Source: Ilumatobacter coccineus YM16-304 (GTDB lineage: Bacteria; Actinomycetota; Acidimicrobiia; Acidimicrobiales; Ilumatobacteraceae). From it: DNA of 64,000 nucleotides. The position numbers and the translations under genes were made by a program. The stretch's first letter is position 1. The number at the start of each line of letters is the position of its first letter. This document shows, one piece after another, positions 8,013 to 22,088 of this stretch. The stretch is taken from NCBI RefSeq assembly GCF_000348785.1, contig NC_020520.1:4464001-4528000 (forward strand), written 5' to 3'. Under the pieces are notes generated by a model. The model searched no databases. It was not told where the DNA came from and was given only the letters and a program-made list of their open reading frames with translations.

Positions 8013-8021
8013 CCGATCATC

Positions 8022-8044: not shown

Positions 8045-8051
8045 GACTAGC

Positions 8052-8129: not shown

Positions 8130-8132
8130 ACG

Positions 8133-8557: not shown

Positions 8558-8768
8558 GTTCGGCGGGCTGGGCACCGAGCAGGTCATCGACTGCTTCGGG
8601 CAGACGACCCACGAACTCACGCTCGACGACGACGGAACCGTCACGATCCGATTCGCGTCGAGCGGCGTCACCGCGTTCGTCGATCCGGCCCAGCGGGCCG
8701 TCCTCACCCCAGGCGTCGTGGTGCCCGACCCGATCATGCACCTCGCGGTCGAACTCCGACCGGGCTGA
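8511..8768 (+). CDS. Small protein of unknown function
   Basis: Up to 85 codons from GTG 8511, overlapping the end of rpmE2 by 47 bases in another frame. From about codon 18 the codons are strongly GC3-biased and give a beta-rich sequence (HELTLDDDGTVTIRF, then PGVVVPDPIMHLAVELRPG) that looks like a genuine domain. The true start may lie within the overlap, or this may be the tail of a larger broken gene. No family recognised. Confidence 0.5.
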   Translation: MSSGSTSGTGVGIAAEFGGLGTEQVIDCFGQTTHELTLDDDGTVTIRFASSGVTAFVDPAQRAVLTPGVVVPDPIMHLAVELRPG

Positions 8769-8827
8769 CGACCAGCGGACGACCAGCAGAACGAGCGGGC
8801 GACGTCGTCGCTCGACCCACGTGCAGC

Positions 8828-9724
8828 TCAGGGAAAGCGACCGGCCCGACTCAGATTGCCCGGCACCGTCGACCCGAGGATCTCGCCGACGAACTGCGCG
8901 GTTCGAATCAGTTCGTCGAGGTCGAGTCCGGTGTCGATCCCCGACCGTTCGAGCATGTAGACGAGATCTTCGGTGGCGATGTTGCCGGTCGCATCGGGGG
9001 CGAACGGGCAACCGCCGATGCCGCCGACCGACGAGTCGAGCGTGACGACGCCCGCCTCGATCGCCGCGAACGCGTTCGCGTATCCGGTGTTGCGCGTGTT
9101 GTGGAAGTGCGCCCGCAATGCGACGTCGGGTGCGGCTCGTCGACACCGGTCGACGAGGTCGGTCACCTGTGCCGGAACGCCGACACCGATCGTGTCGGCC
9201 AGCGCGATCTGCGCCGGCGCGAGCGCCCCGATGCGGCCGGCGATCGCCTCCACCCGGCCCGGGTCGACCTCGCCCGAGAACGGACAGCCGAACGCCGCGC
9301 TCAGCGTGACCGACATCGGAGTCCCGACCAACGCAGCGCGAGCGGCGATCACGTCGACGACGTCGAGCATCTCGTCGGTCGTCATGCGCTGGTTGCGCGT
9401 GCTGAACTCGTCGCTGACCACCACGACGACGTTGATCTCGTCGCACAGCCCGAGGTGCGCGCGATCGAAGCCGCGCTCGTTCAACACGAGGCCCTGGTGC
9501 ACCACGCCGTCGACTCGCGACACGCCGCGCATCACGTCGTCGGCGTCGGCCAACTGCGGCACGGCGGCGGGATGGACGAAGCTCGTCGTCTCCAACCGTC
9601 GCACGCCGGCGCCGATCAGTCGGTCGATCAGTTCGAGCTTGAGTGCGGTCGACACCGTGACCGCCTCGTTCTGCAGCCCGTCGCGGGCGCCGACTTCGAG
9701 GACCTCGATCGACGACGGCATCAT
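8828..9724 (-). CDS. Hydroxymethylglutaryl-CoA lyase-type enzyme
   Basis: 298 residues. A TIM-barrel lyase of the HMGL-like family: VGARDGLQNE near the N-terminus binds metal and substrate, GxCDEINVVVVVSDEFSTRN matches the family core, AHFHNT gives metal-binding His residues, and SVGGIGGCPFAPDATGN near 235 holds the catalytic Cys loop of HMG-CoA lyases. The known reaction splits HMG-CoA into acetoacetate and acetyl-CoA; relatives cleave citramalyl-CoA-like substrates. It is the last gene of the operon and overlaps the MmgE/PrpD stop as ATGA. Beside a CoA transferase it probably performs the C-C cleavage step. The true substrate is not established. Confidence 0.92.
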   Translation of the reverse strand: MMPSSIEVLEVGARDGLQNEAVTVSTALKLELIDRLIGAGVRRLETTSFVHPAAVPQLADADDVMRGVSRVDGVVHQGLVLNERGFDRAHLGLCDEINVVVVVSDEFSTRNQRMTTDEMLDVVDVIAARAALVGTPMSVTLSAAFGCPFSGEVDPGRVEAIAGRIGALAPAQIALADTIGVGVPAQVTDLVDRCRRAAPDVALRAHFHNTRNTGYANAFAAIEAGVVTLDSSVGGIGGCPFAPDATGNIATEDLVYMLERSGIDTGLDLDELIRTAQFVGEILGSTVPGNLSRAGRFP

Positions 9725-11121
9725 CGACCCTGGACCTCCGACCGGCCTGCAGCGAACAACGCCGTCAGATCGGCGATGTCACCGCCGACGCCGAGGGCAT
9801 CGATCGCACCGTGCCACCGCTCGCGCTCCGCCGCGTCGAGTCGATAAGCGAGCAACGCGTCGTGCTTCTCGCGCAGAGCATCTCCCTGCAGCGGCCGCAG
9901 GTGGCTGCCGAGCGCGACGCCGACCTCCAGCTCGTGGGTCGACCCGCCGACGGTCGTGATGCAGGTGCGGTTGGGCGCCTGCCCGGGATAGCGCGTGGAG
10001 AGTTCGGGATCGGGGGTGATCGTGATGCGCTCCATCAGACGGCGCACGTCGGGGTCGAGCCACGCTCCCCCGTCGAACTCCTCGAGCCCGACCTTGCCGT
10101 GTCGGATCGCTGCGGCGACGACGTACTGCACCGACAGCCTGGCCGCCATCGCGGTCTCGGGTTCGTAGTTGACGCCATGGCGTTCGGAGTACGGCGGCTG
10201 GAACAACTCGACCGACTCGATGCCGTCGACGTTCAGGCCGTGCTCGCTCATCAGGGTCACGACCCCTTCGACCGCGGTGTGCGAACTCAGGATGCACGGG
10301 TGTGCCTTGAGGTCGTTCTCCTCCACTTCCCACCGCTCGCCGAGATCGTCGAGGTGTTCGGGAAGACGGTGCGGGTCGCGCTCGTCGGAGTAGGCCCAGA
10401 AGAATCCGAAGTCGTGCTCGAGATGCCCGACCGGGCCGATCGCTCCGGCGTGCACGAGCAGCGCCGCGCGCATGCCCTTCTGCGACGCCGCGGCCGCATG
10501 CAGGCTCTTGGTCACGTCACCCTGGCGGATGCACACGCGTGTGCCGCCGGTGTCGTCGGCCGCGATGCCGAGTGCCATTTCGGTCGCCGCCGCGTCGAGA
10601 CCGAGCGCGACCGATGCCGCCGCCGCGCTCGCGATCCCGCCGAGCGACGCGGTCGCGTGCCACCGCTGATAGTGCTGTGGCATGACGGCGCGGCCCACGC
10701 GACCGCCGACGTCGAATCCGGCGACGACCGCCGCGAGGAAGGTCTCGGCCGATGCACCGACGTGCTCACACGCGGCGAGCGCCGAGGTGACCACCGACGA
10801 ACCGAGGTGGGCGACGACCGCCATCAGCGTGTCGTCGAAGTCGATCGTGTGCACGATGGCACCGTTGAGGAACGCCGCGTCGACGGCGGGCAGCGATCCG
10901 CCGGTCAGGATCGACGTCGATCGACCGCCCGATGTGTCGGCGACGAGCGCCGAGACAGGACCGACGATGTCGTCGGCGACGACGGATCCGGCGATGGCGC
11001 AGGCCAGCGCGTCGGAGATCGTCGAGCGGGTGGCGGCGAGTGCCGATGCCGGGATCTGGTCGACCGTGAGGCCGGCGGCGTGTTCGGCGAGACGGCGGGT
11101 GAGGCCGGTCCACTGGTTCAT
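9721..11121 (-). CDS. MmgE/PrpD-family protein (2-methylcitrate dehydratase-like)
   Basis: 466 residues from ATG 11121, a usual length for the family. Characteristic stretches are AFLNGAIVHTIDFDDT, HPTA-like GGRVGRAVMPQHYQRWHATASLGGIASAAA, and the C-terminal lid domain. Members include 2-methylcitrate dehydratase, cis-aconitate decarboxylase and iminodisuccinate epimerase, so the fold handles substituted di- and tricarboxylic acids. It is coupled to both neighbours by 4-base overlaps. In this operon it probably dehydrates, isomerises or epimerises the dicarboxylic acid released by the upstream amide hydrolases. That is inference. Confidence 0.92.
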   Translation of the reverse strand: MNQWTGLTRRLAEHAAGLTVDQIPASALAATRSTISDALACAIAGSVVADDIVGPVSALVADTSGGRSTSILTGGSLPAVDAAFLNGAIVHTIDFDDTLMAVVAHLGSSVVTSALAACEHVGASAETFLAAVVAGFDVGGRVGRAVMPQHYQRWHATASLGGIASAAAASVALGLDAAATEMALGIAADDTGGTRVCIRQGDVTKSLHAAAASQKGMRAALLVHAGAIGPVGHLEHDFGFFWAYSDERDPHRLPEHLDDLGERWEVEENDLKAHPCILSSHTAVEGVVTLMSEHGLNVDGIESVELFQPPYSERHGVNYEPETAMAARLSVQYVVAAAIRHGKVGLEEFDGGAWLDPDVRRLMERITITPDPELSTRYPGQAPNRTCITTVGGSTHELEVGVALGSHLRPLQGDALREKHDALLAYRLDAAERERWHGAIDALGVGGDIADLTALFAAGRSEVQGR

Positions 11122-12029
11122 CGAGTCGTTGCTTTCTGGAGAGGTTCGGTCTGAAGCGATGCGGCCGCATCCGTCCAGTGGGTGAGGGTCGCGCCGTCGA
11201 TGTCGACGACGGCGTCGACGAAGTGGTCGAACACGCCGACTCGGAAGGGCTGACCGGTCAGCCACGGGCGAACGCAGAACGACAGCACGCGGGCGCCGCG
11301 ACCGTCGTCGATCGCCAACTCGGTGGCCGCGTCGACGAGGTGCTGCCCGTAGGCGGCGGGTTCGGCCATCCGGTTGGCGAGCGTCGTCTGGTCGTCGAGG
11401 TCGGCCGACAGCGGGAAGCCGGTGAGCCGTCCGGTGTCGACGTGGAAGTCGACGAACTGCTCGTCGCCCGTCCAGTCGAAGACGTACTCCATCCCGGCCG
11501 CGGCCAGCACGCCCGGAGTCCGTTCGGACTCGCCGTACTCGGGCCCAAGCCAACCGTTGGTCTCGATGCCACATGCGGCGAGCCGTTCGATCGTCTCGGT
11601 GACGTAGGCGCGTTCTTCCTCCGCGGTGAGGTGCGAACCGATGGGCCGCGTCACCGAGATGCCGTGCGCGATCCAGTCGGCACCGGCGTCGACGAGGCGC
11701 TGCACCAGCCACGGGTAGCCCTCGGCCGTCATCGCGTCGATCGCGATGGTCGGTCGCACGCCGTGTCGCTCGAGCGCGTCGAGCAGTCGGAAGATCCCGA
11801 CGCGATGGCCGTACTCGCGCATCGACACCCGCGAGATGTTGGGGAACGCGCGGTCGAGGCCACCGGCCGTCGAGGACGGTTGCGGCCAACCTTCGGGAAG
11901 CGGATCTTCGTACAGTTCGAGCAGGATGATCGGCACGACCGCCACCCCGCTGCCCGGGCGCCGGCGGTCGGCCAAGGCGCTGTAGTCGAACCATTCGTGG
12001 TCGTAACCGGGACGCCGCTCAGCGGGCAT
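11118..12029 (-). CDS. Polysaccharide-deacetylase-fold hydrolase, PuuE/imidase-like (copy B)
   Basis: 303 residues from ATG 12029, preceded by AGGAG. A NodB-type barrel of the PuuE subclass: N-terminal RRPGYDHEWFDYSALADRRR, SMREYGHRVGIFRLLDALE, AIDAMTAEGYPW and AHGISVTRPIG, where conserved His residues bind metal. This subclass includes ring-opening cyclic amide hydrolases (PuuE allantoinase and a bacterial imidase), not only sugar deacetylases. It overlaps copy A by 11 bases and MmgE by 4. The two copies are clearly paralogous but divergent and may form a heteromer or act on successive substrates. Confidence 0.88.
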   Translation of the reverse strand: MPAERRPGYDHEWFDYSALADRRRPGSGVAVVPIILLELYEDPLPEGWPQPSSTAGGLDRAFPNISRVSMREYGHRVGIFRLLDALERHGVRPTIAIDAMTAEGYPWLVQRLVDAGADWIAHGISVTRPIGSHLTAEEERAYVTETIERLAACGIETNGWLGPEYGESERTPGVLAAAGMEYVFDWTGDEQFVDFHVDTGRLTGFPLSADLDDQTTLANRMAEPAAYGQHLVDAATELAIDDGRGARVLSFCVRPWLTGQPFRVGVFDHFVDAVVDIDGATLTHWTDAAASLQTEPLQKATTR

Positions 12030-12975
12030 CGGAACTCCTTGCTGCGCCGACCGCGGCGAGATCGCGGGCGTAGGCCAACTGTTCGTCGTAGGCGTGTTCG
12101 AGGTAGTGGTCGGCGATCTCGTCGGCGGTGGCGTGCCACACGCGGTCGTCGCCGACGATGTGGTCGAGGATGCGGCGCAGACGCCCGATGTGTTGCGGCT
12201 GACCGATCTGATACGGGTGCAGCGCGATGCACATCGTGAGGCCGGTGTCCCATCGCTCGGCATCGGCGAGCAGTCGGTCGAACTGCGCGATGCACGAATC
12301 GACGAGGTAGTCCCCCGAGTACGGGCGTCCGTCCCAGAGCGGGGCGTCGTTGAGGTCGTACGAGTACGGCATCGAGATCATGCGGCCGACCCCGACGTCG
12401 AGCGGGACCGGTTGGTCGTCGTGGACCCAGTCGGCGTGATACGTGAACCCCATCTCGGCCATGAGCGTCGGCGTGTTCGGGGTGTTGCTCACCGCCGGGG
12501 TGAGCATGCCGCGCAGTCGGTGACCGGTGTGTCGCTGGAGCGACTCGATGTTGTCGGTGTAGAACGCCCGCTCCTCCTCGGGTTCCATCCCGAACAGGAA
12601 GCGCGTGTTGAAGATGCCGTGCGACATGACGCAGAGGTCGCGCTCGATGATCTCGTCGCGGATGCGCGGGAACATGTCGAGGACGGCGAGGTTGAGCGAG
12701 AGCGTGGGCGCGATGCCGACGGCGTCGTACGCCTCGAGCGTCCGCCAGAGGCCGACCCGGTTGCCGTGGTCGCGCAGCGAGTACTCGCGGACGTCGGGCT
12801 CGTGGGTCACTCGATCCCAGGTGACGCGGCCGACGGCGGGCGGCGTCATCATCTCGTAGTGTTCGACGTTGAGGGCCGTCCACACCGCGAGGCGCTTGCC
12901 GCCGGGCCATTCGAGCTTCGGGCGATCGACGATCGGCGAGTACGGGGTCACATCACGGAGCGACTGCATCGTCAC
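12019..12975 (-). CDS. Polysaccharide-deacetylase-fold hydrolase, PuuE/imidase-like (copy A)
   Basis: 318 residues from GTG 12975; ATG 12969 is an alternative. Same subclass as the next gene: RLAVWTALNVEHYEMM, SLRDHGNRVGLWRTLEAYD, MSHGIFNTRFLFG and a C-terminal IALHPYQIGQPQHIGRLRRIL with metal-site His. It is a cytosolic enzyme with no signal peptide, which argues against a role on wall polysaccharide. It lies between GntR (23-base overlap) and copy B. With the isochorismatase-type amidase in the same operon it suggests stepwise hydrolysis of a cyclic amide, imide or ureide. Confidence 0.88.
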   Translation of the reverse strand: MTMQSLRDVTPYSPIVDRPKLEWPGGKRLAVWTALNVEHYEMMTPPAVGRVTWDRVTHEPDVREYSLRDHGNRVGLWRTLEAYDAVGIAPTLSLNLAVLDMFPRIRDEIIERDLCVMSHGIFNTRFLFGMEPEEERAFYTDNIESLQRHTGHRLRGMLTPAVSNTPNTPTLMAEMGFTYHADWVHDDQPVPLDVGVGRMISMPYSYDLNDAPLWDGRPYSGDYLVDSCIAQFDRLLADAERWDTGLTMCIALHPYQIGQPQHIGRLRRILDHIVGDDRVWHATADEIADHYLEHAYDEQLAYARDLAAVGAARSSDAR

Positions 12976-13636
12976 CCCTCGCCGCGATGAACTTGTTGCG
13001 CGTCGCCACGACGTGTGTGCGGGTGATCGCCTCGGCCCACGACTCGTCGCCGGCCGCGATGGCGTCGACGATCTCGGCGTGGTGCTGGTTCGACCGATCG
13101 AGCAGCGCGGTGCTCTGTCGAGCGATCTGGTTGTGCAGGAGCGAGGGTGCCATCAGACCGAGCGCCGCTGTTTCGAGGCGTCGGTTGTCGGAGCCGCGGA
13201 GGAGGTCGCGGTGGAACTGGTTGTTGATGACGGCGTACTCGTTCCAGTCCTCGGCGCGCAGATCGTGTCCGCCGAAGCGTTCCATCCGATCGCACAGCTC
13301 GCGCAGCGACGTCACTTCCTCCGGCGTGGCTCGGGCCGCGGCGAGGCGGGCTGCGAATCCTTCGAGTTGGGCGCGCACTTCGAACATCTCGTCGAGATCG
13401 CGGTCCGACCACTGCGGCACCGCGGCGCCGCGGTTGGGCGTGAGTTCGAGCAGCCCCTCGCCGACGAGGCGGCGAATGGCTTCGCGCACCGGGGTGCGCG
13501 ACATGTCGAGCGACTCGGCGATCTCGACTTCTTTGAGCCGACGACCCGGCGGATACTTGCCGTTGGCGATCGCCGAGCGGAGCGATGCCATCGCCACGGC
13601 GACGTGGTCGTGCGATTCGGTGGGTTTGGCGGTCAT
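12953..13636 (-). CDS. GntR-family regulator, FadR/FCD subfamily
   Basis: 227 residues from ATG 13636. Winged helix at the N-terminus (LRSAIANGKYPPGRRLKEVEIAESL, then SRTPVREAIRRLVGEGLLE) and an all-helical FCD ligand domain with the DLDEMFEVRAQLEGFAA start and metal-site His residues (FHRDL, HAEIVDAI). FCD regulators typically sense organic acids. It is encoded within the operon, overlapping VOC by 4 and deacetylase copy A by 23 bases, so it probably controls that operon and the divergent aminotransferase unit. TGTATACA sites at 17581 and 17699 are candidate operators. Confidence 0.9.
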   Translation of the reverse strand: MTAKPTESHDHVAVAMASLRSAIANGKYPPGRRLKEVEIAESLDMSRTPVREAIRRLVGEGLLELTPNRGAAVPQWSDRDLDEMFEVRAQLEGFAARLAAARATPEEVTSLRELCDRMERFGGHDLRAEDWNEYAVINNQFHRDLLRGSDNRRLETAALGLMAPSLLHNQIARQSTALLDRSNQHHAEIVDAIAAGDESWAEAITRTHVVATRNKFIAARGDDAVAP

Positions 13637-14376
13637 GTACACACCTCGATGAAGACGCCGAGGAGCGCACGCGCGTCGAGCGTGGCGACGGCCTCGGCAA
13701 GTTGGGGACCCGATGGGTCGGTCGGTTCGATGCCGATCGACGACATCGAGCCGAGGAGACGGTCGGTGTCGTCGGCGCGGACGATCACGGTGTCGACCGG
13801 AGCGGTGACCTCGGCGAGGTCGGCGGGGGCGACCGACAGGTCGAGCGCGGTGACGAGCCGTGACGCGGTGCGGTAGCCGATGATGGCCGACATCGAATTC
13901 GGTTGCTCGGACGACGCGGTGACGCGGTCTTTGTCGTGGTGCTGCACGATCACGTGCAACGGGCCGGGTCGTGCGCCCGACGCCGGCGACGGCACGAGCG
14001 ACGCGAACGAGAACCGAGCTTCGCCGTCGGGCGTGTCGCGTGCCCACGTGACGGGATCGGTGGTCTGGTGTCCGGCTCGGCGCGCTGCGTCGACCGCGGC
14101 GCTGACGTCGTCGGTCGACCAGGCGACGACGGCGGTCACCGGTCGGAACTCCCAGAGGTGTTCGAGCGGATGATCAAGTCCGAGCTCGGCGAGTTCTTGG
14201 ACCTCGACGTAGCCCGACGCCGTCACGAACGTCTGCTGCACGCCGCCGGTCGGCTCACCGCCGCCCCGTGCGAGTTGCACGGGGGGCGTGAGCTGGAAAC
14301 CGGCGGCGACGAGCTGCGCCGCGACGTCGTCGAGCGAGTCGACGAGGTGACCGATGTGGTCGAGGCTTACTTCCAC
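13633..14376 (-). CDS. VOC-family (glyoxalase-like) protein
   Basis: 247 residues with two glyoxalase-type halves. The start SLDHIGHLVDSLDDVAAQLVAAGF and the YVEVQELAE segment fit the Glyoxalase_3-like group, in which metal-bound betaalphabetabetabeta modules catalyse isomerisation, C-C cleavage or epimerisation. It sits between the substrate-binding protein (10-base overlap) and GntR (4-base overlap), so it is part of the pathway. A CoA-ester epimerase or isomerase role is conceivable; substrate unknown. Confidence 0.8.
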   Translation of the reverse strand: MEVSLDHIGHLVDSLDDVAAQLVAAGFQLTPPVQLARGGGEPTGGVQQTFVTASGYVEVQELAELGLDHPLEHLWEFRPVTAVVAWSTDDVSAAVDAARRAGHQTTDPVTWARDTPDGEARFSFASLVPSPASGARPGPLHVIVQHHDKDRVTASSEQPNSMSAIIGYRTASRLVTALDLSVAPADLAEVTAPVDTVIVRADDTDRLLGSMSSIGIEPTDPSGPQLAEAVATLDARALLGVFIEVCT

Positions 14377-15257
14377 CAGCTGGGCTTCACGAAGCTGGCG
14401 AAGTTCGGGTCGTTCTCGACGAAGGCACGGAACTCGTCGGACTCGAAGGCGGCGACGACCGCTTGGGCTCCGGCGCTCTCAGCGTTCTCGGCGAGCACGG
14501 TCACCGTGATCTGCGAGGCCTCTGGCACGTCTTCGAGTGCGATCGCGTCACCGAGGGTCACGCCGTCGGCTGCGTAGATGTGGTTGCCGAGTGCGACGCC
14601 GTAGTCGACGTCGGGCAGGGTGCGCGGCACCTGCGGGGCGTCGACCAGTTCGAACTTCAGGTTCTTCGGGTTCGACGTGAGGTCCTTCTCGGTGGCGAAC
14701 TCGCCTTCGGGAACCTCACCGACTTCGACGAGACCGAGGGTCTCGAGGAAGTTGAGGCTGCGGGCCAGGTTGCTCGCCTCCGACGTGAGCGCGAGCGTCG
14801 CGCCGTCTTCGATGTCGGCGGGCGACGTGGCGCTGCCCTTGCCGGCGTACATGCCGAGCGGCGCCGACGGGATCTTGAGGATCGACACGATGTCGGAGCC
14901 GTTGGCCGCGTTGTAGCCGTCCATGAACGCGTCGTTCTGGAAGATCGTCATGTCGAGGTCGCCGTCGACCGTGGCCTGGTTCGGGATCGTGAAGTCGCTG
15001 ATCTCGTCGATGTTCGCCTCGATGCCCTGCGCTTCGAGAATCGGAGCGATTCCGCCCTTGAACATGTCGGCGTACGGGCCGGGGATGAAGCCGATGTCGA
15101 GCTCGATCGTCTCGGCTTCGGCCACCGTGTCGTCGGTGGCTGCTGCCGGGGCGTCGGTGGTCTCGGCGGCGTCGTCGTCGCTTCCGCAGGCGGCGAGCGC
15201 GAACGCTGCGGCGGTGAAGAGGGCGATCGCGCCTCGGGTCGGTGCTGGGAACTTCAT
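14367..15257 (-). CDS. MetQ/NlpA-family substrate-binding lipoprotein
   Basis: 296 residues. Signal peptide with lipobox LAACGS (Cys about residue 23) followed by an acidic Ala/Thr linker, then the NlpA/MetQ two-lobe domain: IGFIPGPYADMFKGGIAPIL, IPNQATVDGDLDMTIFQNDAFMD, PDVDYGVALGNHIYAADG. MetQ proteins bind methionine and relatives, but the family also serves other small molecules. AGGAGACAG gives a ribosome site. A 164-base C-rich spacer separates it from the permease, probably allowing independent expression. The gene company argues for a ligand other than methionine. Confidence 0.9.
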   Translation of the reverse strand: MKFPAPTRGAIALFTAAAFALAACGSDDDAAETTDAPAAATDDTVAEAETIELDIGFIPGPYADMFKGGIAPILEAQGIEANIDEISDFTIPNQATVDGDLDMTIFQNDAFMDGYNAANGSDIVSILKIPSAPLGMYAGKGSATSPADIEDGATLALTSEASNLARSLNFLETLGLVEVGEVPEGEFATEKDLTSNPKNLKFELVDAPQVPRTLPDVDYGVALGNHIYAADGVTLGDAIALEDVPEASQITVTVLAENAESAGAQAVVAAFESDEFRAFVENDPNFASFVKPSWWK

Positions 15258-15286
15258 GCTGGCTGTCTCCTTGATGTGGGGGTGGT

Positions 15287-15331
15287 GGGGTGGTTGGTGG
15301 TGGGGTGGTTGGTGGTGGGGTGGTTGGTGGT
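15287..15331. repeat. Three tandem 15-base G-rich repeats in permease-SBP spacer
   Basis: Three exact copies of GGGGTGGTTGGTGGT on the plus strand; on the mRNA of the minus-strand operon they read as a CCACC-rich tract almost without G. They lie in the 164-base gap (15258-15421) between permease and substrate-binding-protein genes. The tract could be a Rho-loading or processing site in RNA, or a G-quadruplex in the opposite DNA strand. The rest of the gap holds no gene. Confidence 0.85.
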
Positions 15332-15421
15332 GGTGCGGGGTGTGGATGGACGGTTCGGGGATGGTGGGAGGACGCGTGATGCCGGAAGCGGGGTGCCGGG
15401 CGAGGTCGCCTGCCGACGCGG

Positions 15422-16114
15422 TCAGCGTTTGTCGACGACCTTGACTGCGATGGTTCCGGCGAGTTGGACGATCTGCACCGCCACGATCAACACGATCACG
15501 GCGGCGTACATGACCGGCTCGATGAAGCGGTTGTAGCCGTAGCGGATGGCGAGGTCGCCGAGCCCGCCGCCGCCGACGAGACCGGCCGTCGCACTGAAGG
15601 CGATGAAGCTGATCACCGTGGTGGTGAAGCTGGCGATCAGGCTCGGCATCGCTTCGGGGATGAGCACCTTGCGGACGACCTGCGAGGTGCTCGCTCCGGC
15701 TGCGATCGCCGCCTCGGCGAGGCCGCGAGGCACGTCGCGGATGCTCTGTTCGACGAGCCGGGCGTAGAACGGAATCGCCGCGATCGACAGCGGAACCGCC
15801 GCCGCCTTCGGGCCGATGCCCGTCCCCGCGATCTGCCGGGTGAGCGGGATGATCGCGATGACCAGCACGACGAACGGGAACGAACGGATCACGTTCACGA
15901 TCCAGCCGAGCGTCTCGGCGAGCCATGGCTTGTTGATCAGTCCACCCCGGCGTGCGAGGTGCAGGAGGATGCCGACCGGCGTGCCGAACACGAGGGCGGC
16001 GGTCACCGAGATCGACACCATCAGTGCCGTCTCGCCGATCGCCTCGCGGAACTCGGGCATCACGTCGATGACTTCGTCGGGGATGATCCCGGCGATGGTT
16101 GCGGCGAACATCAT
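15422..16114 (-). CDS. MetI-like ABC transporter permease
   Basis: 230 residues with five to six membrane helices. The permease-ATPase coupling motif is EAAIAAGASTSQVVRKVLIPEAMP, the EAA loop of binding-protein-dependent permeases. MetI-type features include the short single-chain form and the IRSFPFVVLVIAIIPLTR segment. It overlaps the ATPase stop as ATGA. It forms the membrane channel, as a homodimer, of the importer encoded in this operon. Confidence 0.93.
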   Translation of the reverse strand: MMFAATIAGIIPDEVIDVMPEFREAIGETALMVSISVTAALVFGTPVGILLHLARRGGLINKPWLAETLGWIVNVIRSFPFVVLVIAIIPLTRQIAGTGIGPKAAAVPLSIAAIPFYARLVEQSIRDVPRGLAEAAIAAGASTSQVVRKVLIPEAMPSLIASFTTTVISFIAFSATAGLVGGGGLGDLAIRYGYNRFIEPVMYAAVIVLIVAVQIVQLAGTIAVKVVDKR

Positions 16115-16902
16115 GTGGTTGCTCCTGCGACTTGCTCGGCCAACCGGACGGTGTCTTCGTCCCAGCCGGTGGCCGACTCGAACAGGAACCGACCGAGTGG
16201 CGTACTCGGTTCTGGTGGGCCGTCTCGGAGGTCGATGCCTTCGACGATCGCTCCTCGCTCCATCACCGAGACGGTGTCGCAGAGGTAACTGACGACGTTG
16301 ATCTCGTGCGTCACGATCACCAGGGTCAGGCCGAGGTCGGCGTTGAGGTCGCGGAGGAAGTGCAGGATGCTCAGCGTGGTGTGCGGGTCGAGGGCACTCG
16401 TCGCCTCGTCGGAGAGCAACACCTTCGGTTCGGTCACGAGCGACCGGGCGATGGCGACGCGCTGCTTCTGCCCGCCGCTCAGTTGAGCGGGGTACGCCTT
16501 GGCGCGTTCGGCCATACCGACGCGTTCGAGCGCCACCATCGAGCGTTTCCGTCGTTCGGCTCGGCTGCAGCCGTCGAGTTCGAGCGCCAGGCCGACGTTG
16601 TCGAGCGCGGTGCGATTCGACAGCAGGTTGAACCCTTGGAAGATCACGCCGATGCGGCGCCGGGCTTCACGAAGTCGACGTCCGGAGAGCTTGGTGATGT
16701 CGGTGCCGTCGACGACCACGCGACCGGTGGTCGGTTCTTCCAGACGGTTGACGAGTCGGAGGAGGGTCGACTTTCCGGCGCCCGAGAATCCGACGATGCC
16801 GGCGATCTCGCCCTCCCCGATCGACAGGTCGAGCGGTTGCACCGCTTGGACGGCGTCGGACCCGGAGCCAAACTCCTTGGACACCCCGGTCAGTTCGATC
16901 AT
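16111..16902 (-). CDS. MetN-like ABC transporter ATP-binding protein
   Basis: 263 residues. Walker A GFSGAGKST, Q-loop GVIFQGFNLL, signature LSGGQKQR, Walker B VLLSDEATSALDP and switch His in VTHE are all intact. The core resembles MetN, including LLSNRTALDNVGLALEL, but true MetN proteins are about 340 residues and end in a methionine-sensing NIL/ACT-like domain. Here only about 25 residues follow the ATPase core. Loss of that domain removes methionine feedback and supports a different substrate. It is coupled to both neighbours by 4-base overlaps. Confidence 0.93.
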   Translation of the reverse strand: MIELTGVSKEFGSGSDAVQAVQPLDLSIGEGEIAGIVGFSGAGKSTLLRLVNRLEEPTTGRVVVDGTDITKLSGRRLREARRRIGVIFQGFNLLSNRTALDNVGLALELDGCSRAERRKRSMVALERVGMAERAKAYPAQLSGGQKQRVAIARSLVTEPKVLLSDEATSALDPHTTLSILHFLRDLNADLGLTLVIVTHEINVVSYLCDTVSVMERGAIVEGIDLRDGPPEPSTPLGRFLFESATGWDEDTVRLAEQVAGATT

Positions 16903-17573
16903 GCGTCGGCTCCGATCTGTGTGAACTTGGCGCACACCTCGGCGGAGGTGGTGAGGTCGCCGTACTTGGTGTCGATGTCGAACAGCGCCGCATCGGACGA
17001 CGGTTTCGATCGGTCGGCCACACAGTCGACCGCAACGATCATGCGGAAGCCGTGCGACACCCCATCGACGACGGTCGAGCGGACGCAGCCACTCGTGGAG
17101 GTGCCGGCGACGACGATCGTGTCGACGCCGGCGGATCGGAACGCGTCGCGCACGGTCGGGTCGAAGAGCGCCGAGGGCACCGTCTTCACGTGGACGATCT
17201 CGCAGTCGATCGGCGCGATGAGCGGGTCGACCGACGATGCTTCCGAACCGCGTCGGGCTTCGAGGAGCCCGGGGCACTTCATCGTCCAGGCGTGATCGTC
17301 GGGGACGGCCTCGGCCTCGTAGCCGACGACGGCGAATGCGACGGGGACGCCGTTGGCTCGAGCTGCAGCCAGCAGGGGCACGGTGTTCTCGACCGCCTCG
17401 AGGCCGGTCGATGCACGACCTCGGGTGTAGAGGTGCTGGAAGTCGACGATGAGCAGTGCTGCCTTCGCACCCCACCCCACCGAACCGCCGCCGATCCGCT
17501 GCTCACGGTAGAGCTCGCCGACTTCGGTGTACTGATCGTCACTCTGGAGCGAAAGCCCTTGCGTCGAGGTCAT
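16899..17573 (-). CDS. Isochorismatase-family amidohydrolase (N-carbamoylsarcosine/maleamate amidase-like)
   Basis: 224 residues. The cysteine hydrolase triad is visible: Asp in ALLIVDFQHLY, Lys in VHVKTVPSALF and the nucleophile Cys in TSTSGCVRSTVVDG. The GCVRSTVVD context and the N-terminal LYREQRIGGGSVGWG are typical of N-carbamoylsarcosine or maleamate amidases, which release ammonia from a linear amide. It is the first gene of the ten-gene operon, overlapping metN by 4 bases, with divergent promoters directly upstream. The likely job is deamidation of the ring-opened product of the PuuE-like enzymes. Confidence 0.88.
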   Translation of the reverse strand: MTSTQGLSLQSDDQYTEVGELYREQRIGGGSVGWGAKAALLIVDFQHLYTRGRASTGLEAVENTVPLLAAARANGVPVAFAVVGYEAEAVPDDHAWTMKCPGLLEARRGSEASSVDPLIAPIDCEIVHVKTVPSALFDPTVRDAFRSAGVDTIVVAGTSTSGCVRSTVVDGVSHGFRMIVAVDCVADRSKPSSDAALFDIDTKYGDLTTSAEVCAKFTQIGADA

Positions 17574-17580
17574 GCGGTAT

Positions 17581-17706
17581 TGTATACATTCTACCGATGA
17601 GCTTGTCCAGCGAAAATGTCGAAACGGCACCAAACGCCGGTTATTCAAGCGTTCCTGCCACCTCGGACGCTGGACCGTTCCAGGCGTCGACCGAGGACTG
17701 TATACA
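17581..17706. promoter_or_regulatory. Divergent control region with two TGTATACA palindromes
   Basis: Perfect 8-base palindromes TGTATACA occur at 17581-17588 (in ATTGTATACATT) and 17699-17706, 118 bases apart, between the isochorismatase start and the conserved body of the divergent aminotransferase. GT-AT-AC cores are common in GntR-family operators, and the operon encodes a GntR regulator. Base usage between the sites is less GC-rich than the flanking coding DNA. Assignment to that regulator is inference. Confidence 0.55.
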
Positions 17707-18931
17707 ACGTACGGGTATGAAGTGGTCGGAAACGGTACCGGGCACGATCCCGGCGTGGGTCGCCGAAACCGACTTCCGGCTGCCGCCGAGCGTCGAGTCC
17801 GTTCTGGTCCGGGCGGTGACGAGCGGCGACGTCGGCTACCGACCGAGCGACGAGACCTCACCATTGCGCGCGAGCTGGTCGCGTCACCTGGCCACCGAGT
17901 GGGGCGTCGACGTCGACCCCGATTCGGTGTTCGGCGTCCCCGGCGTGGTCACCGGCCTCTACGCGTCGATCCGTGCGTTCACCAAACCGGGCGGCGAGGT
18001 CGTGGTGACCACACCGGTCTACGCACCGTTTCTCGACGCACCGGGCGAACTCGGCCGCCACCGCGTCGACGTCCCGCTCGTCGACGACGGCTCGCGCTGG
18101 CGTCTCGACCTCGACGGCATCGACCGCGCGTTCGCGGGCGGCGCTCGCCTGCTGCTCCTCTGTCATCCGCACAACCCGACCGGCACGGTGTTCGAGCGGA
18201 GCGAACTGGTCGAGCTCGCACGCATCGCCGCCCAGCGCGGTGCCGTGGTGGTCAGCGACGAGGTCCACGCACCGGTCACGTACGCCGGCACCGACTTCTG
18301 CTCGTACGCAGAGGTCGCCGGACCCGAGCACTGCGTGGTCCTCGTTTCGATGTCGAAAGCGATGAGCTTCGCGGGACTGCTGTGCGGTGCCGCGATCGTC
18401 GGCGCCGCATGGCGCGACGAATGGCTGGCGATTCCGCGACGCCTGCGCTCGGGCCCCTCACTCCTCGGCGTGCTCGCGACCGAGGCCGCGCTCGAACCGC
18501 CCGCCCAGGAGTGGCTGCGCCAGATGGTCACGCTCCTCGGCAGTCATCGCGACCGCCTCGCGGCGACGCTCGACGAAGCATTCCCCGGGGTCGTACATCG
18601 AGCCCCCGAGGCTGGCTACCTGTACTGGGCCGATTTCTCCGACACGTCGATCGCCGGTGACCCCGTGGCCGCGTTCGCCGACGTCGGGCTGCGCGTCGAG
18701 ACCGGCAACTACTTCGTCGACAGCTCCAGCGACGACTACGCCGGCCACGTCCGCATCAACTTCGGCACCTCCGACGAGATCTTCACCGAGATGCTCGACC
18801 GCATCACCGCCGCCGGACACGCCCACGACGCCGCAACCCGCTCCTCCGCAATCCCTACTTCCGCAACCCCGACCTCCGCAACCCCCACCCCTCGAACCAC
18901 CACCCCTCGAACCACCAAGGACACACAGTGA
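17597..18931 (+). CDS. MalY/PatB-type PLP-dependent aminotransferase or C-S lyase
   Basis: 444 residues from ATG 17597. Fold-type I PLP enzyme: MKWSETVPGTIPAWVAETDF is the MalY/PatB substrate-loop motif, LLLCHPHNPTGTVF and VVSDEVHAP bind PLP, and SMSKAMSFAG carries the Schiff-base Lys. Relatives cleave cystathionine-like C-S bonds or transaminate. The start is uncertain: codons 1-40 have low GC3, and ATG 17717 would shorten the protein to 404 residues, but RTGMKW resembles the family N-terminus. The C-terminus ends in a Thr/Pro/Ser-rich tail. GTGA overlap with the next gene. Confidence 0.85.
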   Translation: MSLSSENVETAPNAGYSSVPATSDAGPFQASTEDCIQRTGMKWSETVPGTIPAWVAETDFRLPPSVESVLVRAVTSGDVGYRPSDETSPLRASWSRHLATEWGVDVDPDSVFGVPGVVTGLYASIRAFTKPGGEVVVTTPVYAPFLDAPGELGRHRVDVPLVDDGSRWRLDLDGIDRAFAGGARLLLLCHPHNPTGTVFERSELVELARIAAQRGAVVVSDEVHAPVTYAGTDFCSYAEVAGPEHCVVLVSMSKAMSFAGLLCGAAIVGAAWRDEWLAIPRRLRSGPSLLGVLATEAALEPPAQEWLRQMVTLLGSHRDRLAATLDEAFPGVVHRAPEAGYLYWADFSDTSIAGDPVAAFADVGLRVETGNYFVDSSSDDYAGHVRINFGTSDEIFTEMLDRITAAGHAHDAATRSSAIPTSATPTSATPTPRTTTPRTTKDTQ

Positions 18932-19785
18932 CGATTCTCGACATCGACGGCCACCAACTCTGGTACGAACGACACGGCGAGGGCGCACCCGCGCTGGCGA
19001 TGGGCGGTTGGGGCACGTTCTGCCACGGTGGCCTCGGCGCCGTGCCGCGTGCAGTCCGATCGAGCCGCGAAGTGATCGTGTTCGACTACCCCGGTGTCGG
19101 CCAGTCGAGCGACGGCGCCGACCGCGACTCCACCACCCTGCAACTCGCCCACGACGCCATCGCGCTGCTCGACCACCTCGGCCTGACCAACATCGACATC
19201 GTCGGGCTCGTCGGGCTCGGGGCCTGCGTCGGTCAGCAGATCGCCATCCACCGACCCGACCTCGTGCGGTCGCTCGTGATGACCGGAACGTGGGCGCAGC
19301 CCGACCCGACCTTCAACGATCAGATCGACGGCTTGCGTCGAGCACACCTCGAAGCCGGCTTCGAGACCTTCCAACTGCTCGTCGCCTCCTTCTCGTTCAC
19401 GTCGGAGTTCTACAACGAGAACCGCGACCGGCTGCTCGGTCCGACCGGCGCGTGGGGCGACCTCGACGGCCGCGCCGCCGCGCACTCGCGCCTGGTCGAT
19501 GCCTGCCTGTCACACGACGTCCTCGACCAGTTGCCGTCGGTGACGTGTCCGACCTTCATCGTCCACGCCGGACGCGACATGATCACTCGACCCGACATGA
19601 CCCAGATCATCGAGAACGCCATGCCCAACGCCCGCGGCGTGCTGTGGCCCGAGATCGCCCACGTGATCGCCGGCAAAGACCAGAAGATCCAGTTCGACGC
19701 CATGCTGAACGAGTTCTACGACGCCGTGGCCAACGGCACCCACACCCCGACCACCACCCCCCTGAACACGAAGGACGCATCATGA
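18928..19785 (+). CDS. Alpha/beta-hydrolase-fold protein lacking the usual nucleophile
   Basis: 285 residues from GTG 18928. Clear alpha/beta-hydrolase: VIVFDYPGVGQSSDG, the nucleophile-elbow region, an acid in FIVHAGRDMITRP and a late His in EIAHVIAGK. At the elbow, where G-x-S-x-G is expected, the sequence is VGLVGLGACVG (residues 92-102), with Val95 or Gly98 where Ser should be; Cys100 is nearby. So either the register differs, it uses non-nucleophilic chemistry, or it has lost hydrolysis. It is coupled to the aminotransferase (GTGA) and the CoA transferase (ATGA). Function in the pathway is open. Confidence 0.85.
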   Translation: MTILDIDGHQLWYERHGEGAPALAMGGWGTFCHGGLGAVPRAVRSSREVIVFDYPGVGQSSDGADRDSTTLQLAHDAIALLDHLGLTNIDIVGLVGLGACVGQQIAIHRPDLVRSLVMTGTWAQPDPTFNDQIDGLRRAHLEAGFETFQLLVASFSFTSEFYNENRDRLLGPTGAWGDLDGRAAAHSRLVDACLSHDVLDQLPSVTCPTFIVHAGRDMITRPDMTQIIENAMPNARGVLWPEIAHVIAGKDQKIQFDAMLNEFYDAVANGTHTPTTTPLNTKDAS

Positions 19786-20975
19786 ACGGCCCAATGAGCG
19801 ACATCAAGGTCATCGAGCTCGGACAACTCCTCGCCGGGCCGTACTGCGGCCAACTGTTCGCCGACTACGGCGCCACGGTCATCAAGCTCGAACAACCCGA
19901 GGTCGGCGACCCGCTGCGCAAGTGGGGTCGCGAGCGCGTCGACGGCGAGACCCTCTGGTGGCCCATCGCGGCACGCAACAAGCGGTCGGTCACGTGCAAC
20001 CTGCGCGACGAGCGCGGGCAAGACATCGTCCGCCGCCTCGTCGCCGACGCCGACGTCCTCCTCGAGAACTTCCGCCCCGGAACCATGGAGCGGTGGGGTC
20101 TCGGCTGGGAAGAACTCTCGGCGATCAACCCGAAGCTCGTGATGGTGCGCGTGTCGGGCTTCGGCCAGACGGGTCCGTACGCGAAGCGACCCGGCTACGC
20201 CTCGATCGGCGAAGCGATGGGCGGCCTGCGCTACGTGATGGGCGACCCGTCGAGCGCGCCGAGCCGTGCCGGCATCTCGATCGGTGACTCACTCGCCGCG
20301 ATCTACGCCACGCTCGGTGCGATGGCCGCCCTGCATCACGTCAACATCACCGGCCGCGGCCAGGTCGTCGATGCGTCGATCTACGAATCCGTGCTCGCCG
20401 TGATGGAATCGCTCGTGCCCGAGTACACCGTCGGCGGCTTCACGCGCGAGCGCACCGGACCGATGCTGCCCAACGTCGCACCGTCGAACCTCTACCCGAC
20501 GATCGACGGCGAATGGGTGCTGATCGCCGCCAACCAAGACACGCTGTTCCGTCGCCTCTGCAACGCGATGGGCAAGCCCGAGTGGATCACCGACGACCGC
20601 TTCGTCGATCACCTCGCCCGCGGCGCCCACCAGGCCGAACTCGACGGTCTGATCGCCGAATGGACCGCGACCATGACCGCCGACGAAGTGCTCGAACTCA
20701 TGGTCGAACACGAGGTGGCGGCGGGTGGCGTGTACCGCGCCCCCGACATGCTCGCCGACCCGCACTTCCAAGACCGTGAATCGATCGTCGAGGTCGACCA
20801 CCCGCGGCTCGGCACGTTCGCCATGCAGAACGTGTTCCCGAAGTTCTCCGAGACGCCCGCCGCCGTCGAGTGGGTCGGCCCCGAGCTCGGCGAGCACAAC
20901 GACGAAGTGCTCAAGGGAACACTCGGCTTCGACGACGAGACGCTCGCCCAGTTCCGCGCCGACGGCGTCATCTGA
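19782..20975 (+). CDS. CaiB/BaiF-family (type III) CoA transferase
   Basis: 397 residues from ATG 19782. N-terminal IKVIELGQLLAGPYCGQLFADYGATVIKLE, VTCNLRDERGQDIVRRLVADADVLLENFRPG and VRVSGFGQTGPYAKRPGY are classic. The catalytic Asp of formyl-CoA transferase follows the RPGY motif; here the residue is Ala140 (RPGYASIGEAMGG), as I align it. Many family members with Gly or Ala there exist, so activity is uncertain but not excluded. Predicted role: CoA activation of the dicarboxylate before the HMGL-type lyase. Last gene of the divergent unit. Confidence 0.92.
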   Translation: MNGPMSDIKVIELGQLLAGPYCGQLFADYGATVIKLEQPEVGDPLRKWGRERVDGETLWWPIAARNKRSVTCNLRDERGQDIVRRLVADADVLLENFRPGTMERWGLGWEELSAINPKLVMVRVSGFGQTGPYAKRPGYASIGEAMGGLRYVMGDPSSAPSRAGISIGDSLAAIYATLGAMAALHHVNITGRGQVVDASIYESVLAVMESLVPEYTVGGFTRERTGPMLPNVAPSNLYPTIDGEWVLIAANQDTLFRRLCNAMGKPEWITDDRFVDHLARGAHQAELDGLIAEWTATMTADEVLELMVEHEVAAGGVYRAPDMLADPHFQDRESIVEVDHPRLGTFAMQNVFPKFSETPAAVEWVGPELGEHNDEVLKGTLGFDDETLAQFRADGVI

Positions 20976-21137
20976 GGTCGGGAGGCTCTCGCCGTGGCCC
21001 CGTGACCCCGGGACACCCGGGACTCCGGGACTCCGGGACAGCTTCGTCTGGGTTTCGTCTGGCGCGGATCGGGGACCCTCTCTGCAGCGACCCGATGAGC
21101 GGGTGTGCATCGCCGAGACCGAACGAGGAGCCAAATC
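20976..21137. other. Short intergenic region with CCGGGAC repeats
   Basis: About 21003-21042 holds alternating CCCGGGACA and CCGGGACT units, able to form GC-rich hairpins, after the CoA transferase stop. No T-tract follows. This may be a weak terminator. GAGGAG before 21138 is the ribosome site of the next gene. Confidence 0.4.
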
Positions 21138-22088
21138 ATGTGCCGGGTGCTGGCCTACATCGGGCCCGAGATACCACTCGAGAGCCTGCTGCTCACACCC
21201 GAGAACAGCCTGATCAACCAGACGCTCGACCCCGAACTCCACCCGCTGCTCCAGCTCGCGGGTTGGGGCTTCGGCGCGTGGAGCGACCACCTGCTCGAGC
21301 CCGAGAAGCCGTTGCTGTACCGCCGGCCGATGGCCGCGTTCTACGACGACAACGCGCGCAGCGTGATCCCGAGCTTGCAGGCGAGCACGTTGCTCGCGCA
21401 TGTTCGAGCCGCGGCGTACGACTCCACGACGGTCCTCACCGACGAGAACTGCCACCCGTTCTCGTACGAGGGAACACCGTGGATCATGGCCCAGAACGGC
21501 GCCCTGCCGAACTGGAAGGTGCTCCAACGCGACCTGCTCGAGCACTGCGACGACCGTTACCTCGAACAGATGCGAGGGACCACCGACACCGAGTTCCTCT
21601 ACGTGCTCCTGCTGTCGCTGCTCGACGGCGACGAGGACGACGACGTGCAACGCGGCTTCGAAACCATGTTGCGTCTGATCCTGCGGGCGATGAAGCGCCT
21701 CGACCGAGTCGAACTGACGAAGTTGAAGCTCGCGCTGGTGGCACCGAACCGGATCATCGGCGCGAACTACGGATCAGATCACGACGGTGCCACGGTGGCG
21801 ACCGCCGACTGGCGTGAGCTCCGCGAGGCCGAGCCCGGCACCGACGACCACGCGCGGTCGATGCTGCTCGAGCCGATGTATCTGCTCACCGGCCGCAACT
21901 TCGAAGATCACGAGAACTCGTACGGCGTCGACGTCACACCGGTCGACGAGGCGATGTCGGCGATCTTCGCGTCCGAACCGTTGACCGACGACGCCTCCGA
22001 ATGGTCGACCATCGAGTTCGGTGAGATGGTCGCGCTGCACAAGACCGCGAGCGGCATCACGAAGACGGTGTCGACGCTCGACATCTGA
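21138..22088 (+). CDS. Class II glutamine amidotransferase
   Basis: 316 residues starting MCRVLAYIG, so Cys2 becomes the N-terminal nucleophile after Met removal, as in Ntn-type glutaminases. Further family features are LLAHVRAAAYD (Arg binding glutamine), NCHPFSYEG and WIMAQNGALPNW. It belongs to the YafJ/EgtC-like stand-alone group, whose members hydrolyse glutamine or gamma-glutamyl bonds. The start was chosen for Cys2 and the GAGGAG ribosome site. No synthase partner is adjacent, so the acceptor is unknown. Confidence 0.92.
   Translation: MCRVLAYIGPEIPLESLLLTPENSLINQTLDPELHPLLQLAGWGFGAWSDHLLEPEKPLLYRRPMAAFYDDNARSVIPSLQASTLLAHVRAAAYDSTTVLTDENCHPFSYEGTPWIMAQNGALPNWKVLQRDLLEHCDDRYLEQMRGTTDTEFLYVLLLSLLDGDEDDDVQRGFETMLRLILRAMKRLDRVELTKLKLALVAPNRIIGANYGSDHDGATVATADWRELREAEPGTDDHARSMLLEPMYLLTGRNFEDHENSYGVDVTPVDEAMSAIFASEPLTDDASEWSTIEFGEMVALHKTASGITKTVSTLDI

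Follow-up and report, generated by a model that had tools for sequence, protein, structure and literature searches.

A conserved pair of PuuE-like proteins in a candidate cyclic imide catabolic locus of Ilumatobacter coccineus YM16-304

Background

A 64,000-nucleotide stretch of the single-contig genome (4,830,181 bases) of Ilumatobacter coccineus YM16-304, positions 4,464,001–4,528,000, here called the window, carries a block of 13 genes, ten on the minus strand (window positions 17573 to 8828) and three divergent ones on the plus strand (17597–20975). Two adjacent minus-strand genes encode proteins that by sequence fall on the PuuE side of the polysaccharide-deacetylase superfamily and for which we coined the names PuuA and PuuB in the present analysis. 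We propose that the block may be an inducible pair of operons for the catabolism of a small cyclic imide, with a substituted succinimide or maleimide as the likeliest substrate, and consider this proposal about equally likely to be right or wrong.

Among the closest described systems is HxnM, a cyclic imidase related to HP0310 and PuuE, which is followed by an amidase in the nicotinate catabolism of Aspergillus (PMC9304392). As far as the available part of that source goes, HxnM-HxnN and an imidase of Pseudomonas putida YZ-26, cited in the paper, resemble the window in combining a PuuE/HP0310-like imide opener with a separate amidase to yield a diacid; the window differs in having a conserved pair of PuuE-like proteins and in that its diacid would feed enzymes of the MmgE/PrpD, CaiB and 3-hydroxy-3-methylglutaryl-coenzyme A (HMG-CoA) lyase types. 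The PuuE allantoinase (3CL6) has the same fold and two histidines that align in PuuA, whereas PuuA reaches only 91.8 bits against the equivalog cut-off of 424.6 of the PuuE profile (NCBIfam TIGR03212; PuuB, with 45.2, is below it too), belongs to an operon without purine genes and has an extra partner subunit.

Known substrates of the MmgE/PrpD family are four-carbon 1,4-dicarboxylates with substituents at C2 or C3 (PMC12290011, accessible part). The itaconate/methylsuccinate cluster treated in the same part of that paper resembles the window in that a CoA-transferase, an MmgE/PrpD member and a C-C lyase are clustered for branched 1,4-dicarboxylates, but the window is without itaconyl-CoA hydratase and methylsuccinyl-CoA dehydrogenase, has a lyase of the HMGL family and adds nitrogen-ring genes. 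The presence of either MmgE/PrpD or LeuCD beside PuuA-PuuB recalls the 2-methylcitrate cycle, in which PrpD is replaced by an unrelated dehydratase (AcnD/PrpF) in some organisms (PMC5690661, accessible part); there is no citrate-synthase-type gene among the 13 of the window, however, and another substrate is expected. The Rut pyrimidine pathway, as described in the available part of PMC8113886, likewise employs isochorismatase-fold and alpha/beta-hydrolase-fold members, and a RutA-type enzyme occurs in one of the loci discussed below, but no RutA, RutC or RutF match was found among the 13 window proteins (Pfam, NCBIfam). We found no description in open-licence papers of a PuuE-like ring-opening enzyme of two subunits that is linked to the metabolism of branched 1,4-dicarboxylates.

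Results and discussion

PuuA and PuuB as a conserved unit

The PuuA-PuuB pair is a conserved unit. A contig search with the PuuA alignment, covering 84,980 species by one genome each, matched at least 594 stretches, at least 583 of which encode a relative; the first contig search, with the single window PuuA as query, had found none. The best 80 of the at least 583 confirmed relatives, chosen by PuuA similarity alone, form the locus set (three pairs, L030/L052, L073/L102 and L032/L037, share a contig or genome, and L035 and L061 are short), and 18 further loci (L008–L025) were examined outside it. PuuB directly follows PuuA in 78 of the 80 loci (exceptions: L030, L040), and in six of them (L044, L047, L051, L054, L055, L062) the two lie in one open frame as a natural fusion. 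CaiB frames are found near five of the six fusions; L055 also encodes a monooxygenase of the luciferase type (NtaA/DmoA), and L051 has a similar frame.

The pair is also found on plasmids. Among 14 plasmid records opened, 11 had a gene table, and in seven of these (Burkholderia, Salipiger, Sphingomonas, Acidiphilium, Comamonas, Terrarubrum, Sphingobium) an annotated isochorismatase gene directly precedes PuuA-PuuB. The preceding gene is annotated as a cysteine hydrolase in Variovorax, the Arthrobacter and Rhizobium plasmids have the pair without an isochorismatase gene before it, and the Microbacterium plasmid has just one PuuE-like gene, after which comes one for an N-carbamoylsarcosine amidohydrolase. 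Two of the three records without a gene table (L021, L022) show an isochorismatase match before PuuA. Three plasmid loci combine CaiB, HMGL, isochorismatase, PuuA, PuuB and LeuCD, two of them in the same gene order. On the Salipiger plasmid (L014) genes for a VOC protein, a sulfurtransferase and a cystathionine beta-lyase (20768–23539) lie 3' of PuuA-PuuB-amidase-HyuAB in one run.

The nearest PDB chains are 3s6o, 3rxz and PuuE (3cl6) for PuuA, and 3rxz and PuuE (3cl6) for PuuB. PuuA residues H117 and H251, which align with the PuuE histidines (motifs SHG and GLHC..GRP), are invariant in all 80 loci. At the corresponding places PuuB has H in 55 of 76 sequences for the first histidine and H in 47, R in 20, T in 8 and N in 1 for the second; in the window PuuB the latter is Arg 254. 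CE4 deacetylases have the metal-binding motifs TFDDG and HxxxH. PuuA is without them and exhibits NxE and HGxxN in their stead, with N34, H117 and N121 kept in 80/80 loci and E36 in 78/80. Thus, catalysis seems to reside in PuuA and PuuB seems to assist it, because PuuA keeps both PuuE histidines and PuuB does not, and because the CE4 motifs are replaced in PuuA.

A PuuA model predicted from 41 window and locus sequences has a mean predicted local distance difference test (pLDDT) score of 88.7 (the single-sequence AlphaFold model, with pLDDT 36, was unusable). The ten PDB chains that match it best are PuuE, HP0310 and PuuE-like proteins (E-values 6e-19 to 5e-15), followed by a CE4 pseudoenzyme (2.6e-7) and sugar deacetylases (from 8e-7). 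PDB neighbours, residues and model together support the suggestion of the original prediction that the two deacetylase-fold proteins are PuuE/imidase-type rather than sugar-deacetylase in character. Fold and genomic context agree with a putative role of PuuA-PuuB as a cyclic imide hydrolase.

Partner genes and related loci

The 80 loci were compared with 20 control stretches of 20 kilobases (kb) from four actinobacterial genomes, using family profiles, all of which apart from those for PuuA and PuuB had been retrained on these very loci and controls (a de novo clustering of the frames split families and served only for picking frames to annotate). The families found in loci and controls, respectively, are CaiB (24/0, Fisher p 0.003), MmgE (20/0, 0.011), the isocitrate lyase/phosphoenolpyruvate mutase family (ICL; 18/0, 0.020), isochorismatase (16/0, 0.037), AS amidase (14/0, 0.066), GntR (11/1), FAD oxidoreductase (10/0), LeuC (7/1), LeuD (7/0) and HMGL (2/0). 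No commoner near PuuA than in these controls are the MetN-like ATPase (12/4), AcDH (7/2), xanthine-dehydrogenase-like proteins (XDHL; 3/1), PatB (2/1) and MFS (2/1). MmgE or LeuC goes together with a lyase gene: both are present in 14 loci, one alone in 16 and neither in 50 (odds ratio 11.7, p 2e-5, for loci that are not independent). The observation is real and not explained by chance, because the core gene set recurs in other phyla; the check for conserved co-occurrence was positive, PuuA-PuuB recurring together with an amidase, MmgE/PrpD or LeuCD, a CoA-transferase and a lyase.

Among the closest relatives of the cluster is L086, an alphaproteobacterial metagenome-assembled genome (Pararhodobacter), in which homologues of 8 of the 13 window proteins form one cluster. 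It contains VOC (33% identity over 125 amino acids (aa), E 4e-10), whose gene adjoins that of GntR (38%), and the alpha/beta-hydrolase-fold protein (ABH, 43%), CaiB (49%) and HMGL (46%); it also has AS amidase, in the place of the window's isochorismatase, PuuA, PuuB and MmgE, and then a TRAP binding protein, an OYE protein and an acyl-CoA-synthetase/enoyl-CoA-hydratase fusion. No match to the window PatB or the three transporter proteins was found in this cluster. The order PuuA-PuuB-MmgE is common to the window, L086, L072 and L089. The top NCBIfam profile of the L086 OYE protein is N-ethylmaleimide reductase (237.5, under the cut-off of 403), and L089 encodes a 54% identical protein; in L072 two glutathione S-transferase (GST) genes stand between GntR and PuuA.

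L008 (genome G031), from the window's own family, has two PuuE-like genes, isochorismatase, MmgE (30%) and CaiB (40%), together with a cyclase-family protein and a CitE-type lyase, both named by eye. L133 combines CaiB (40%), a CitE/RipC-like lyase, MmgE (32%), ABH (34%) and another cyclase-family protein; that name is by eye in both loci, with no NCBIfam match at E 1e-20. L131, from another actinobacterial family, has CaiB (70.5%), ABH (60%), GntR (30%) and isochorismatase (34%) beside a RutA-like monooxygenase (486.4 bits, cut-off 498.3) and a nitrilase-fold gene (8164–13816), with an HMGL match (54%) about 10 kb from CaiB; within the 32 kb examined there is no PuuA or PuuB match. Xanthine-dehydrogenase-type genes lie near PuuA-PuuB in L012, L036, L046 and L056, the first and third of which also have an asparaginase gene; these four loci perhaps represent a pyridine or pyrimidine version of the ring-opening unit.

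Enzymes expected to act after ring opening

In the PDB the isochorismatase-fold enzyme is closest to N-carbamoylsarcosine amidohydrolase (26st, E 3e-30), followed by 3ot4/3uao (E 1e-29) and 4l07 (E 2e-29), which we take to be maleamate amidases. Enzymes of the N-carbamoylsarcosine/maleamate amidase group have an Asp-Lys-Cys triad, and the corresponding D44, K130 and C163 are invariant in 11 sequences. The only three NCBIfam matches of the window enzyme, RutB, a general hydrolase and BiuH, are all far under their cut-offs.

The window MmgE, the only MmgE_PrpD_N match in the genome, is closest in the PDB to iminodisuccinate epimerase (2hp3, E 6e-38) and reaches at most 44.2 bits with the equivalog profiles of 2-methylcitrate dehydratase PrpD (cut-offs 458–950). 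Residues given for the isomerases and epimerases of the family in the accessible part of PMC12290011 include His99, Tyr145 and substrate-coordinating residues of 2HP0. In an alignment made by eye the window MmgE keeps the catalytic histidine, two lysines, the other coordinating residues and the epimerase tyrosine; in a comparison with 31 neighbouring MmgE proteins, 32 rows because one was entered twice, 30 rows keep the catalytic histidine (the H150 line of this comparison was misindexed).

CaiB is the best-scoring of 9 family matches in the genome and reaches no equivalog cut-off. The HMGL protein scores above the cut-off of NCBIfam NF004283 (292.2 against 246); its best PDB match is human HMG-CoA lyase (2cw6, E 7e-63), with which the motifs RDGLQNE, HxH and GGCP align, and a second copy (44%) is encoded elsewhere in the genome. 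ABH has a conserved GGWG motif near the N-terminus and a glycine where Est1 has the nucleophilic serine; the homologues in L131, L086 and L133 are also without serine there. PcaD- and RutD-like scores are far under the cut-offs, and RutD-like chemistry is not claimed for ABH, its serine position being Gly.

A possible route and what weighs against it

In the proposed route the substrate would be imported by the NlpA/MetI/MetN-like ATP-binding cassette (ABC) transporter, a tentative step. The two-subunit PuuE-like enzyme, with the active site in PuuA and PuuB as partner, would then open the ring hydrolytically to a half-amide, a step suggested because of family, conserved pairing, fusion and residue pattern. 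The isochorismatase-fold amidase, in view of its nearest relatives, may remove ammonia to leave a 1,4-dicarboxylate, which MmgE/PrpD would hydrate or isomerise, CaiB would activate with CoA, and the HMG-CoA-lyase-type enzyme could cleave to an acyl-CoA and a 2-oxo acid. A five-membered imide is favoured because opening and deamidation of a substituted succinimide or maleimide give the backbone of known MmgE/PrpD substrates. Computed results are the gene order, the families, PuuA-PuuB as a conserved unit, the partners that recur with it and the rare palindromes described below. The broad idea of the original prediction, catabolism of a cyclic amide or imide, appears likely, and its interpretation is supported in part.

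Several observations weigh against the imide route. Substrate and activity are proposed from gene families and context. The control stretches are few and not taxon-matched; amidase, MmgE/LeuC, lyase and CaiB are all missing from the stretch in 23 of the 80 loci, 16 loci have CaiB alone, and HMGL is rare (2/80 by profile, 5/98 by tblastn). At E 1e-8 there are no MetQ and no MetI homologues in the 98 loci, and PatB homologues are weak (3/98). The best relatives of ABH and CaiB stand in L131 with a RutA-type enzyme and without PuuA-PuuB, which hints at a ureide too. The MmgE hydration is insecure, because the window protein aligns its tyrosine with the epimerases and this residue is missing from the neighbours (0/32 rows, 17 gapped there), and no itaconate-type hydratase or dehydrogenase was found among the 13 genes (Pfam). 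Finally, at E 1e-30 the PuuA of the cluster was found in none of the 9 congeners sampled, of which only 2 are at least 90% complete. The cluster is an accessory trait, because PuuA is absent from these congeners and rare among 60 relatives (2, source genome included) and in the phylum (5 of 396 genomes, source genome included, at the same threshold). Of the refuting conditions given with the original prediction, lack of synteny in relatives applies close to the source strain but not across phyla.

If the imide route is correct, PuuA-PuuB, now annotated 'polysaccharide deacetylase', would be the hallmark of a ring-opening type of catabolic operon found in many bacteria (at least 583 relatives). 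It would tie cyclic-imide hydrolysis to branched-dicarboxylate metabolism, suggesting a substrate class for uncharacterised MmgE/PrpD proteins, and would offer a testable entry into the use of recalcitrant nitrogen heterocycles in sea and soil. A bolder version, which we regard as unlikely, is that the cluster and its relatives constitute a widespread, undescribed route for alkyl maleimides and succinimides derived from tetrapyrroles, with an imide hydrolase of two subunits, the catalytic one being supported by a degenerate twin. Hematinic acid, methylethylmaleimide and methylvinylmaleimide from chlorophyll, haem and bilins would be the candidate substrates, a guess from chemistry; SAR202, Acidimicrobiia and similar marine and soil bacteria could then reclaim carbon and nitrogen from pigment remnants.

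Alternative readings

The substrate could instead be a cyclic ureide (a substituted uracil, dihydropyrimidine or hydantoin), with PuuA-PuuB opening the ring, the isochorismatase-fold enzyme removing the carbamoyl group like RutB or N-carbamoylsarcosine amidase, and ABH acting like RutD. PuuE itself acts on a ureide, allantoin; the isochorismatase-fold enzyme has N-carbamoylsarcosine amidohydrolase as its nearest PDB neighbour (NCBIfam matches, as said, remaining far under cut-off); and L131 joins ABH, CaiB, GntR and isochorismatase to a RutA-like protein. A third TGTATACA site, besides the two in the window, lies at an amidohydrolase/nitrilase-fold operon that by eye is of the dihydropyrimidinase type, but it adjoins a MocR-type regulator gene, its possible owner. 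Since MmgE, LeuCD, ICL, HMGL and CaiB near PuuA-PuuB handle nitrogen-free dicarboxylates, which are reached less directly from a ureide, we consider this reading rather unlikely. A six-membered ring, glutarimide or glutaconimide, might come from pyridine catabolism and give aconitate-like products, as in the fungal HxnM step or with citrazinate. LeuCD and ICL would suit aconitate-like acids, the four loci with xanthine-dehydrogenase-type genes fit, and HxnM opens a six-membered imide (PMC9304392, accessible part). A hydroxylase of the xanthine-dehydrogenase type is absent from the 13 window proteins (Pfam, NCBIfam), however, XDHL is found in 3/80 loci against 1/20 controls, and a 1,4-diacid backbone of four carbons is common to the known MmgE/PrpD substrates as far as the available source goes, though an aconitate-type acid has it too; on balance a six-membered substrate seems distinctly improbable.

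The PatB-like enzyme of the window raises the possibility that the compound carries or acquires a thioether. Electrophilic maleimides react with thiols, and a PatB-like C-S lyase and the VOC protein might clear or use the cysteine adduct. The Salipiger VOC, sulfurtransferase and cystathionine beta-lyase genes, 7–10 kb 3' of PuuA-PuuB in the same run, the two GST genes of L072 and the OYE proteins of L086 and L089 (the former with its sub-threshold N-ethylmaleimide reductase match) are in line with this. PatB homologues are nevertheless weak and scarce (3/98 loci; 2/80 against 1/20 controls), and the window protein misses the cut-off of the C-S lyase profile TIGR04350, a transaminase being equally possible; we attach little probability to the thioether reading. 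Family-name annotation would make the block a methionine importer and two sugar or peptidoglycan deacetylases merely side by side with unrelated catabolic genes, and the absence of a second NlpA-type match in the genome would fit. The whole chain overlaps but for one gap, though, the PuuA-PuuB pairing and partners are conserved, the MetQ, MetI and MetN cut-offs are missed and the sensing domain is absent, and the deacetylase motifs are lacking in PuuA, all of which make an ordinary assemblage of this kind highly improbable. A cyclic imide remains our preferred substrate.

Organization of the locus

The minus arm encodes, in order from 17573, the isochorismatase-fold amidase, MetN-, MetI- and NlpA/MetQ-like proteins, Glyoxalase_3, GntR/FCD, PuuA, PuuB, MmgE/PrpD and the HMG-CoA-lyase-type enzyme; the plus arm, from 17597, encodes the PatB-like pyridoxal phosphate (PLP) enzyme, ABH and CaiB (Table 1). 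The family names proposed earlier are borne out by Pfam and NCBIfam: the 12 proteins other than PuuA are each above their Pfam cut-off, and PuuA is assigned via the NCBIfam PuuE profile.

Table 1. Features of the 13-gene block, in window coordinates
Feature	Position	Strand	Basis or remark
HMG-CoA-lyase-type C-C lyase, 298 aa	8828..9724	-	Pfam HMGL-like 138.7 bits
MmgE/PrpD family enzyme, 466 aa	9721..11121	-	Pfam MmgE_PrpD N + C
PuuB, second PuuE-like subunit, 303 aa	11118..12029	-	Polysacc_deac_1 24.4, cut-off 23.1
PuuA, PuuE/imidase-like putative ring-opening subunit, 316 aa	12019..12969	-	PuuE profile 91.8 bits; alternative GTG start 12975
GntR/FCD transcriptional regulator, 227 aa	12953..13636	-	GntR + FCD domains
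Glyoxalase_3/VOC-fold protein, 247 aa	13633..14376	-	Pfam Glyoxalase_3 39.1 bits, cut-off 25.1
NlpA/MetQ-like binding lipoprotein, 296 aa	14367..15257	-	Lipoprotein_9 156.5 bits
164-base gap with 15-base tandem repeat	15258..15421	-	sequence
MetI-like permease, 230 aa	15422..16114	-	BPD_transp_1
MetN-like ATPase without C-terminal sensing domain, 263 aa	16111..16902	-	ABC_tran only
Isochorismatase-fold amidohydrolase, 224 aa	16899..17573	-	Pfam Isochorismatase
Predicted GntR operator 1, palindrome TTGTATACAT	17580..17589	.	between divergent start codons
PatB-like PLP enzyme, C-S lyase or aminotransferase, 444 aa	17597..18931	+	Aminotran_1_2; alternative ATG start 17717
Predicted GntR operator 2, CTGTATACAA	17698..17707	.	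inside PatB or just 5' of its alternative start
Alpha/beta-hydrolase-fold protein (ABH), 285 aa	18928..19785	+	Abhydrolase_1
Class III (CaiB) CoA-transferase, 397 aa	19782..20975	+	CoA_transf_3 416.8 bits

All ten minus-strand genes form one chain, with overlaps of 4 bases for HMGL/MmgE, MmgE/PuuB, GntR/Glyoxalase_3, MetI/MetN and MetN/isochorismatase, 11 for PuuB/PuuA, 17 for PuuA/GntR (23 if PuuA starts at GTG 12975) and 10 for Glyoxalase_3/MetQ, and a single gap of 164 bases between MetQ and MetI. The overlaps and the C-rich gap of the original prediction stand; its count of nine chained genes is too low, because the eight overlaps and one gap chain all ten. The coupling of the three divergent genes was described correctly (overlaps of 4 and 4 bases, GTGA at 18928 and ATGA at 19782). 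The 4-base overlaps are ATGA in six of seven cases and GTGA in one. The gap is G-rich on the plus strand and therefore C-rich in the mRNA; it contains 3.5 perfect (100%) copies of a 15-base tandem repeat (15281–15333), which, situated between the genes for permease and binding protein, might adjust the ratio in which these are expressed.

None of the transporter proteins reaches its equivalog cut-off (MetQ 81.1 and 81.3 against 374 and 228.85, MetI 188.9 against 212, MetN 271.6 against 499.7, the latter match covering 1–243 of 343). The MetQ-like protein has MetQ-type relatives in the PDB, and a genome search at E 1e-5 gave no further match. As had been noted from the translation, the ATPase has no C-terminal sensing (NIL) domain, ABC_tran alone being found by Pfam. 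As conserved parts of the system the importer and the PatB-like enzyme are not supported by synteny; they belong to it by operon structure only, with a single weak MetI match (L015) under a looser threshold. The PatB-like protein scores 244.8 with TIGR04350 (PatB C-S lyase; cut-off 340), and the transaminase alternative is equally possible because this cut-off is not reached; its PDB relatives are 3fdb and 6qp3. Repeats at 18831–18917 encode its Pro/Thr/Ser-rich C-terminal tail.

Regulation between the two arms

The GntR/FCD protein, one of 3 FCD matches in the genome, likely regulates both arms by way of the two TGTATACA sites, which lie between the arms and are predicted operators. These sites give 4 matches in the window (two sites, both strands) against 0.05 expected. 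The pattern TGTATACAW has three sites genome-wide, two of them in the divergent region of the window, and the reversed-pattern control has one match per strand. The divergent start codons are 23 bases apart if PatB starts at 17597; a start at ATG 17717 puts both palindromes between the genes.

The third TGTATACA site (L127, 5738; genome 1569737) lies in the divergent promoter of the MocR-type regulator gene and faces an operon of class III aminotransferase, nitrilase-fold, amidohydrolase and aldehyde dehydrogenase genes. Cross-regulation with it was considered and is not claimed, because the site adjoins its own regulator gene. Further GTATAC-centred sites are seen in the GntR–PuuA interval of L089, in the HMGL–CaiB interval of L017 and upstream of the L072 GST genes, and L086 has ATTGTGCACAAT upstream of ABH, all picked by eye among other GTATAC matches, with no chance estimate.

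The block is flanked on one side by a gene for a ZigA-like GTPase (6777–8435; 529 bits, cut-off 600) and on the other by one for an EgtC-like class II glutamine amidotransferase (21138–22088; 103 bits, cut-off 219).

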